Notes under the pieces: generated by a model
Told to the model about the DNA's origin: nothing
What the model saw: only the letters and a program-made list of their open reading frames with translations
Database searches by the model: none
Part shown: in pieces, positions 54,801 through 57,662 of the stretch
How the letters are laid out: each line of letters opens with the position of its first letter
Numbering within the stretch: position 1 is the stretch's first letter
Made by a program: the position numbers and the translations under genes
Assembly: GCF_006402735.1 (NCBI RefSeq)
Contig: NZ_CP017174.1
Location: 2,545,001 to 2,609,000 of the forward strand
DNA length: 64,000 nucleotides
Reading direction: 5' to 3'
Source: Myxococcus xanthus
GTDB lineage: Bacteria; Myxococcota; Myxococcia; Myxococcales; Myxococcaceae

Positions 54801-57260
54801 TCAGGGGAGCGGCCCGTCGACCAGGCGGAGCACGTCCGCCAGCACGCCAGCCGCTGTCACCGCCGCGCCCGCGCCGTAGCCGCGAATCACCAGCGGAGTG
54901 GGGCTGTAGCGCTCCGAAGTGAAGCTGAGCGCGTTCTCTCCGCCCTTCACCGCCGCCAGCGGGTGCGTCAGGGGCACCGGCACCAGCCCGACGAAGCAAC
55001 CGTCCTCCGTGACGCTGCCCACGTAGCGTAGCACCTTGCCCTCCGCGCGGAGTGCCTCCACGCGGCGCTGGAAGGCGGCGTCCACCTGGGGGAGTCGGGC
55101 GAGGAAATCATCCAGCGGCCCGGTGGCGTCGAAGTCCGACGGCAGCAGGGAGTCCAGCGTCACCTGCTCCAACTCCACGTGGCGGCCCAGCTCGCGGGCG
55201 AGGATGAGCACCTTGCGCGCCACGTCGGTGCCGTGGAGGTCGTCGCGCGGGTCGGGTTCGGTGAAGCGCTTCTCCATGGCGGTGCCCACCGCCTGCGACA
55301 AGGGGACGCCTTCCTCCGTCAGGCCCAGGATGAATGACAGCGAGCCGGAGAGGATGCCTTCCACGCGCAGCACCCGGTCTCCCGTGCGCAGCATGTTCTT
55401 CAGCGTGTCGATGACGGGCAGCGCCGCGCCCACGTTCGTCTCGTAGAGGAAGCGGCGTTGGTGACGGGAGGCCGTCTCGCGCAGCTTGCGGTAGTGGCTC
55501 CACTGGCCTGCGTTGGCCTTCTTGTTGGCGGTGACGACGTGGAGCCCCGCCTCCATCAGCGACGGGTAGGCGAGCGCGATGTCCTCGCTGCTGGTGCAGT
55601 CCACGAAGACGGGCCGGCCCGGCCGCTTCGCGCGGGCCCAGTCGCGGAAGGCGTCCAGGGGCGCGCCGTCGCTGCTGGCCGACAGCCGCTGCTTCCAGTC
55701 CTCCAGGGGAAGTCCCTCGCTCGCCGTCACGACGCGCTTGCTGTTGGCGATGACGCAGACGCGCAGGTCCACGCCGTGGGCGCGCAGCTTGGGCGCCTGC
55801 TGGTGGACCTGCTTGAGCAGCTCGCCGCCCACGCTGCCCACGCCGGCCAGCAGCAGCTCCACGACTTCCGTGGTGCCGAAGCACCGACCGTGGACATGGG
55901 CCAGGGCGCGGGGGCCGTCCGTCTCCGCGATGACCGCGGAGATGCTGCGCTCGCTGGAACCCTGCGCGATGGCGGCGATGCTGCAACCCACGTCCGCCAG
56001 CGCGCTGAAGAAGGTGCCTGCCACGCCCACGCGGTGGCGCATGCCATCACCGACGATGCTGAGCACGGCGAGCCCGCGCTGCTGCTCGATGGTGTCCACC
56101 TTGCCCGCCGCGCGCTCCATCTCGAACGCGACTTCCAGGGACTGCACGGCGCGCTCCGCGTCCGCCTGCTGGACGCAGAAGCTGATGGAGCATTCGCTGG
56201 AGCCTTGGGTGATGAGCACCACGGAGATGTTGGCGTGGGCCATGGACTCGAAGACGCGGGCGGCGGTGCCCGGAACGCCCTTGAGTCCCGCGCCCGCCAG
56301 GTTCACCAGGGCGATGCCGGGAAGGAAGGAGAGGCCGCGCACCGGGTGCTCGGGCGGCGCGGCGTCGTCGGTGACGCGGGTGCCCGGGTGGTCGGGGCGG
56401 AAGCTGTTGCAGACACGCACGGGGATGCCACGCTCGCGCGCGGGCGCAATCGTCTTGGGGTGGAGCACCTTGGCGCCGAAGTAGGCCAGCTCCATGGCCT
56501 CCTCGAAGCTCACCTCGGGCAGCGGGAAGGCTTCTGGCACCAGCCGCGGGTCGGCGCTGAAGATGCCGTCCACGTCCGTCCAGATCTCCAGCAGCTCCGC
56601 GTCCAGCGCCGCCGCCGCCAGCGCCGCCGAATAATCCGAGCCACCCCGGCCCAGGCACATCGTCTTGCCCCGGGCGTCACCGCCGAAGAAGCCCGGCATC
56701 AGCATCAACCCGGGACCGCTGGCCTCGCGCAGCGGCGTGAAGCGCGCCCGGCTCTCCTCCTGGAGCGGTGTGGCCTGGAGCGGGTCCCCCGCGCAGAGGA
56801 TGACGTCCCGTGGCTCCACGGCGTGCGGCTCCAGTCCGCGTGCGTGCATCAGCGCGCCCAGGATCAGGCACGAGGCGCGCTCGCCCAGGCCGGACAGGTG
56901 CGCGAGCACGGAGGGCGAACATTCCCGCAGCAGCCCCACGCCCTGCAGCAGCCCGCGCAGCTCCGAGGTCAGCGTGGAAAGTCCCTCTTCCAGCGAGCGC
57001 AGCCGTGTCTCCCCCAGCTCCGCCGCCAACTCGCGGATGATGCCGCGGTGGACGTCCTCGAAGCGGCCGTGGAGCGACTCCACCGGCTGACCTTCCTGGG
57101 CCGCGCGGGCCGCGTCCACCAGGAGGTTGGTGATGCCGGAGACGGCCGAGGCGACCATCATCACCCGCGTCTCCTTGCGCGCCGCCGCGGCCAGGTCCGC
57201 CACGCCGCGCATCCGCTCGGCGTTGCCCACGCTCGTCCCCCCGAATTTCATCACCCTCAT
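54801..57260 (-). CDS. thrA: Bifunctional aspartokinase / homoserine dehydrogenase
   Basis: Catalyses the first and third steps from aspartate to threonine and methionine. The 819-residue length equals E. coli ThrA. The aspartokinase part starts at KFGGTSVGNAERM and has GRGGSDYSAALAAAAL and FGAKVLHPKTI. Two ACT regulatory domains lie about 310-455 (NISVVLITQGSSE..., CSIAAIAQGSSE...). The dehydrogenase starts with LLAGVGSVGGELL (NAD site) and has VTANKKANAGQW, GILSGSLSFIL and DPRDDLHGTDVARK. The ATG at 57260 has GGAGGTG 6 nt upstream. Expression is very likely controlled by the leader/attenuator just upstream. thrB and thrC are not adjacent. Confidence 0.97.
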   Translation of the reverse strand: MRVMKFGGTSVGNAERMRGVADLAAAARKETRVMMVASAVSGITNLLVDAARAAQEGQPVESLHGRFEDVHRGIIRELAAELGETRLRSLEEGLSTLTSELRGLLQGVGLLRECSPSVLAHLSGLGERASCLILGALMHARGLEPHAVEPRDVILCAGDPLQATPLQEESRARFTPLREASGPGLMLMPGFFGGDARGKTMCLGRGGSDYSAALAAAALDAELLEIWTDVDGIFSADPRLVPEAFPLPEVSFEEAMELAYFGAKVLHPKTIAPARERGIPVRVCNSFRPDHPGTRVTDDAAPPEHPVRGLSFLPGIALVNLAGAGLKGVPGTAARVFESMAHANISVVLITQGSSECSISFCVQQADAERAVQSLEVAFEMERAAGKVDTIEQQRGLAVLSIVGDGMRHRVGVAGTFFSALADVGCSIAAIAQGSSERSISAVIAETDGPRALAHVHGRCFGTTEVVELLLAGVGSVGGELLKQVHQQAPKLRAHGVDLRVCVIANSKRVVTASEGLPLEDWKQRLSASSDGAPLDAFRDWARAKRPGRPVFVDCTSSEDIALAYPSLMEAGLHVVTANKKANAGQWSHYRKLRETASRHQRRFLYETNVGAALPVIDTLKNMLRTGDRVLRVEGILSGSLSFILGLTEEGVPLSQAVGTAMEKRFTEPDPRDDLHGTDVARKVLILARELGRHVELEQVTLDSLLPSDFDATGPLDDFLARLPQVDAAFQRRVEALRAEGKVLRYVGSVTEDGCFVGLVPVPLTHPLAAVKGGENALSFTSERYSPTPLVIRGYGAGAAVTAAGVLADVLRLVDGPLP

Positions 57261-57361: not shown

Positions 57362-57391
57362 AAAAAAGCCCCGCGCCGGAGAGCGCGGGGC
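57362..57391 (-). terminator. Attenuator terminator of the thr leader
   Basis: A perfect 9-bp stem GCCCCGCGC and GCGCGGGGC with a 6-nt loop, followed on the minus strand by six T (57362-57367). It lies 29 nt past the leader-peptide stop and about 100 nt before thrA. A smaller hairpin (GGAACC/GGTTTCC) between the leader stop and this stem could take part in an alternative fold. Confidence 0.9.
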
Positions 57392-57419
57392 CGAGCTGGA
57401 AACCAAGGTGGTTCCGTCG

Positions 57420-57554
57420 CTAGACCACCCGCGCCCGGCGGGGAGTCGTCGTGGTCGTCGTCGTGGTGGTGGTCAGCACGGTCGTCAGGACACCCGCGCG
57501 GGCGAGGAACGTCGTTCCCTCGCGCTGCACATGCTGGCCGTTGACGCCGTTCAT
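57420..57554 (-). CDS. thrL: Threonine leader peptide (attenuation of thrA)
   Basis: A 44-codon frame from an ATG at 57554 to a TAG at 57420. After an ordinary first half it reads GVLTTVL followed by ten consecutive Thr codons (ACC, ACG, ACT), then PRRARVV. Fourteen of the 44 residues are Thr, four of them outside the run. A terminator hairpin with a T-run follows at once, then thrA. This is the classic layout of ribosome-mediated attenuation: shortage of charged Thr-tRNA stalls the ribosome in the Thr run and prevents the terminator. E. coli ThrL has a comparable Thr/Ile run, but no Ile codons occur here, so the signal seems to be Thr alone, perhaps with Val or Leu. The ribosome binding site is weak. 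Confidence 0.85.
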   Translation of the reverse strand: MNGVNGQHVQREGTTFLARAGVLTTVLTTTTTTTTTTPRRARVV

Positions 57555-57662
57555 GAAGGGAAGGCTGGCCGAACTTGCCGCGGTAAGTCAAGCAAGGGAC
57601 CCGGCAGGTCCATGCATGACGGGGACGGGCTCGCGGAGGTCAACGCGAGCCCTCCCCAGCGT

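Follow-up and report, generated by a model that had tools for sequence, protein, structure and literature searches.

What controls thrA, a gene that stands alone in the Myxococcus genome, and why would its control respond to threonine and not to isoleucine? The window analyzed here, 64,000 nt in length, comes from a Myxococcus chromosome of 9.32 Mb assembled as one contig. In it, a small open reading frame (ORF) lies downstream of pit, a phosphate transporter gene, and upstream of thrA, with all three on the minus strand and pit ending 110 nt upstream of the small ORF. The original prediction, made from the sequence of this segment, was that the ORF encodes the leader peptide of a ribosome-mediated attenuator keyed to Thr. 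The layout of the segment, in window coordinates, is as follows.

57586–57591, minus strand: predicted −35 element, TTGACT, from the alignment of relatives and its spacing
57562–57567, minus strand: predicted −10 element, CAGCCT (weak), from alignment and geometry; 18-nt spacer, 7 nt before the ATG
57420–57554, minus strand: leader peptide ORF, 44 aa plus TAG, from the ORF list; MNGVNGQHVQREGTTFLARAGVLTTVLTTTTTTTTTTPRRARVV*
57444–57473, minus strand: Thr run of ten codons, ACC ACC ACC ACG ACG ACG ACC ACG ACG ACT, the proposed sensor
57474–57465, minus strand: region 1, the 5′ part of the Thr run plus the preceding G
57423–57434, minus strand: region 2, GCGCGGGTGGTC, the last leader codons, from constrained folding
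57398–57415, minus strand: inner hairpin GGAACCACCTTGGTTTCC, nested within the antiterminator, from constrained folding
57362–57391, minus strand: predicted intrinsic terminator, regions 3 and 4, GCCCCGCGC TCTCCG GCGCGGGGC TTTTTT
54801–57260, minus strand: thrA, 819 aa, bifunctional aspartate kinase/homoserine dehydrogenase I by profile matches, the gene proposed to be controlled

The 44-codon ORF with its ten consecutive Thr codons was found just as predicted. The TAG ends at 57420, and the terminator, a perfect 9-bp GC stem (GCCCCGCGC/GCGCGGGGC) followed by six T, also agrees with the prediction; its distance from the TAG is 28 nt rather than the 29 nt given there. The thrA ATG at 57260, preceded by the ribosome binding site GGAGGTGCGCTC, lies about 100 nt downstream of the terminator, again as predicted. 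A separate 9-bp inverted repeat, GGGCTCGCG/CGCGAGCCC, is found at 57651–57626, directly after the pit stop codon. It has no T run and may act as a weak terminator for the pit operon.

The identity of the downstream gene is clear. Its product scores 999.6 bits with the NCBIfam equivalog NF006959 (cut-off 726) and has the Pfam domains AA_kinase, ACT, and Homoserine_dh. The nearest named relatives, in M. xanthus AM003 and Myxococcus sp. CA023, are 98% identical. The genome carries a second aspartate kinase–homoserine dehydrogenase (AK-HSD; L185, G000:C1:1184918-1187371), 38–39% identical to ThrA, before which no Thr leader or terminator was seen. One clear thrC is present, far from thrA at 3.99 Mb, and no attenuator was seen before it.

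We consider it highly probable that thrA is controlled by ribosome-mediated transcription attenuation at this locus, through charged tRNA-Thr and with Thr alone as the signal. A Thr-codon ORF, a predicted intrinsic terminator, an antiterminator that is released by stalling in the folding models, and a pathway gene downstream, the hallmarks of such an attenuator, come together here. The switch is proposed to work as follows. Transcription would begin at, or a few bases from, the leader ATG, and ribosomes would translate the leader at once. With ample Thr-tRNA, the ribosome would pass the Thr run, reach the TAG, and cover region 2; with region 2 covered, regions 3 and 4 pair in the computed fold, and RNA polymerase would stop at the U run. 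When Thr is short, the ribosome would stall in the run and mask region 1, and the free region 2 would pair with region 3 as the antiterminator, so that thrA would be transcribed. If the leader is not translated, the 1:2 pairing and the terminator would both form (superattenuation). The outcome would be a pathway that is on only when threonine is scarce, that is, an E. coli-type switch in a distant bacterial group.

The folding computations imposed a ribosome footprint on the transcript, and stalls were sampled along the leader of the window sequence. Region 2 can pair either with the Thr codons (1:2, the protector) or with the 5′ arm of the terminator (2:3, the antiterminator). In the nascent transcript, the probability of the 2:3 antiterminator is 0.7–0.9 when the ribosome is at the sampled Thr codons 30–36, and it is 0 for a ribosome at codon 39 or at the stop codon. 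In the full transcript, the terminator has a probability of 1.0 when the ribosome sits at the stop codon and of 0.999 when there is no ribosome; in the latter state, the Thr codons pair with the end of the leader (1:2), which lets the terminator form. The contrast between stalled and stop states recurs in most of 58 related leaders, a set in which the automatic frame choice was wrong for L024, L171, and L173. The distance from stop to terminator is mostly 25–32 nt outside Corallococcus.

Two controls indicate how far the pairing depends on the leader sequence. When the last 24 nt of the ORF are shuffled, mean antiterminator pairing drops from 0.84 to 0.40. With synonymous recoding, it drops from 0.84 to 0.60, a modest excess for the natural sequences that is absent in some leaders, such as L157. 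Since recoded leaders still reach 0.60, the pairing is owed partly to the GC-rich codons of the RGAR end. In the full-length transcript, terminator and antiterminator are about equal in stability, and in Corallococcus the terminator stays favored at equilibrium in nearly all stalled states. It follows that the order and timing of RNA synthesis must matter.

Conservation argues that the arrangement is not a chance one. A whole-genome pattern search for (ACN)8 finds a single place in the 9.32 Mb. In 1 kb of sequence, the terminator-like matches number three, all of them the one hairpin at 57391–57362, versus 0.3 in shuffles. Among the 26 Myxococcus genomes with readable upstream DNA, all 26 keep the frame, the Thr run, and the terminator. 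Their leaders have 9–15 Thr in the last 30 codons and, in line with the original prediction, no Ile codon in any of the 26. The Thr codons are ACC (138), ACG (133), and ACT (40), with no ACA; this mix shows that the run is not a pure repeat. Run length varies freely among relatives, and indel blocks inside the ORF are multiples of three in 22 of 24 cases; from the stop codon to thrA, this holds for 32 of 103. GCGCGG of region 2 and GGTCTAGC are invariant across 20 distinct sequences. No column covariation was found in the genus, because the stem arms are invariant there and the inner hairpin shifts register.

Loss of the Thr run in close relatives had been named as an observation that would count against the prediction. 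The run is kept throughout Myxococcus. Corallococcus lacks an uninterrupted run, and its homologous ORF, found in 11 of 12 genomes, keeps spaced Thr codons, e.g., VMTETRTRTGLTPRGARTA*. In one Corallococcus leader (L024, genome G025), a deletion has taken away region 2 and the 3′ end of the ORF, stop codon included, so that the frame ends inside the terminator loop. The attenuator may be naturally broken here, or the deletion may reflect a sequencing error.

Myxobacteria at large do not carry the element: in a search of 195 Myxococcota genomes, only Myxococcus and Corallococcus have it. A similar one is found in another phylum. A Thr-rich leader precedes thrA at 29 of 30 loci of the Holophagaceae (Acidobacteriota; L155–L184), and 27 of the 30 have a terminator. 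As a positive control, the same leader scan recovered the Thr/Ile leaders before gammaproteobacterial thrA.

The position of the putative promoter suggests an unusual start. TTGACT is present in all Myxococcus relatives, 31–32 nt before the leader start codon. In Corallococcus, the −35 is mostly CTGACC at 32–34 nt, with a −10 of TAGGAT; in the Holophagaceae, it is TTGAC followed by T, C, A, or G at 29–30 nt. Thus, the distance from −35 to start codon is nearly fixed, at 29–34 nt, across two phyla, and with a −10 in between, transcription is predicted to start within about 3 bases of the ATG or GTG. No promoter before the leader passed the promoter scan, the Myxococcus −10 being below the consensus threshold. 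No Shine-Dalgarno sequence precedes the leader ATG. From the predicted start at the start codon and the missing Shine-Dalgarno sequence, a leaderless leader ORF is predicted; judged by promoter geometry, translation probably uses a leaderless start. There is a precedent in trpL of S. meliloti, whose leader transcript starts at the leader ATG and is leaderless (PMC7298713).

A different account of the hairpin would make it just the terminator that closes the pit operon, with thrA transcribed from its own promoter beyond it and the Thr run a chance triplet repeat. The closeness of pit, on the same strand and 110 nt upstream, would suit this account, as would the failure to detect a strong promoter before the leader. 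We judge it very unlikely. The ORF, its frame, and its Thr content persist through synonymous changes and in-frame indels; region 2 hardly varies and can base-pair with the terminator arm; a TTGACT-like element stands at a near-fixed distance from the start codon; and a similar unit precedes thrA in the Holophagaceae. Just as improbable, in our estimate, is that the 44-aa peptide is a functional small protein and the terminator incidental. The frame is conserved, and in the alignment the closest species also conserve the N-terminal part; moreover, the leader peptide of S. meliloti trpL, peTrpL, can act in trans (PMC7298713). Against a peptide function, the sequence varies widely between groups apart from its Thr codons and its RGAR end, which the RNA constrains; run length varies freely, and the peptide has no Pfam or NCBIfam match.

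The least probable account, which we all but dismiss, gives control of thrA to another Thr sensor, a T-box or riboswitch, and makes the ORF coincidental. T-boxes do occur on thr genes in Firmicutes. An Rfam scan at E up to 5, however, returned only terminator-like chance matches, with no T-box, riboswitch, or notable cis-regulatory element and no leader family, including Thr_leader (RF00506). In addition, the part that is conserved is a coding run plus terminator arms. Attenuation by a translating ribosome, keyed to Thr as originally proposed, is the reading supported by the conservation, the preservation of frame, and the stall-dependent alternative folding.

Why Thr alone? The genome shows no match to ilvC or ilvD, nor any ilvB or leuA above cut-off, and the organism is thus predicted to be a branched-chain amino acid auxotroph, as myxobacteria often are (PMC12919014). 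ilvC is absent or far below cut-off in 9 of 9 Myxococcus and Corallococcus genomes, whereas it is present in 8 of 8 Holophagaceae. The codons follow the same division: Ile codons are absent from the Myxococcus and Corallococcus leaders, and the last 25 codons of the Holophagaceae leaders hold 37 Ile to 182 Thr. We suggest that the signal is Thr only because Myxococcus cannot make Ile from Thr and would have no need to sense Ile. A rule by which leaders sense Ile only in hosts that make it from Thr would fit and explain this pattern, which is a single evolutionary contrast and not a repeated one.

Comparison with known systems places the locus as follows. With the thrL of E. coli and other Gammaproteobacteria (Rfam Thr_leader, RF00506), it shares a Thr-rich ORF, three mutually exclusive pairings, an intrinsic terminator, and a ThrA-type AK-HSD downstream, the ThrAs falling in one supported clade. 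It differs in that the leader has no Ile codons, is longer (41–48 aa), probably has a leaderless start, and is followed by thrA alone. The Holophagaceae leaders are alike in promoter-to-start geometry, terminator distance, and a ThrA of the same clade, and one subgroup ends its leader with GGTCTAGCT, just as Myxococcus does. They have a short Thr run with interspersed Ile codons, and one subgroup has a shorter terminator stem; in contrast, Myxococcus has a single long run. With S. meliloti trpL, the likeness lies in ribosome-mediated attenuation and in a transcript that begins at the leader ATG; the amino acid there is Trp rather than Thr, and the start was mapped there and is predicted from promoter geometry here (PMC7298713).

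Leader-peptide attenuation is well described in Gammaproteobacteria. The mechanism is a known one; the lineage is new for it, and here it comes with a Thr-only code and a probable leaderless start. No report of thr attenuators in myxobacteria or Deltaproteobacteria was found in the literature searched, a weak absence, as subscription papers are thinly covered. Likewise, no description of the Holophagaceae Thr/Ile leaders was found there. One survey noted that almost none of the attenuators predicted in Acidobacteria have an assigned function (PMC2965389). The locus places a clear thr attenuator in both the myxobacterial and the Acidobacteria lineages. It makes testable the old idea that leader codons follow the metabolic uses of an amino acid, and it offers a natural, probably leaderless, leader peptide along with a candidate natural broken allele, L024.

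The history of ThrA bears on the origin of the element. The close ThrA type is confined, among the 195 Myxococcota genomes, to Myxococcus and Corallococcus. Other myxobacterial genera have ThrA relatives that are only about 40% identical, and no attenuator was found before those examined. Outside the two genera, the nearest ThrAs are those of the Holophagaceae and a few metagenome-assembled genomes (MAGs). In the tree, the Myxococcus/Corallococcus ThrAs join those of the Holophagaceae (100/99) and then those of Gammaproteobacteria (100/99), apart from the other myxobacterial ThrAs. Two intervening MAG thrA genes, L088 and L090, have no leader. A plasmid search gave no match. The likeliest reading is that thrA and its attenuator were transferred together between groups, with no direction implied. 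A fuller scenario is offered tentatively, as we lean slightly against it when taken whole: a single family of ThrA-I with a leaderless Thr attenuator, in Holophagaceae and in Myxococcus/Corallococcus, would have moved between phyla with its gene, its codons being rewritten from Thr plus Ile to Thr only upon loss of isoleucine synthesis by the host. Finally, a record titled Comamonas sp. KCTC 72670 (BNCN01000014.1; L079) holds a 95%-identical Myxococcus thrA with its leader, and the record looks mislabeled.
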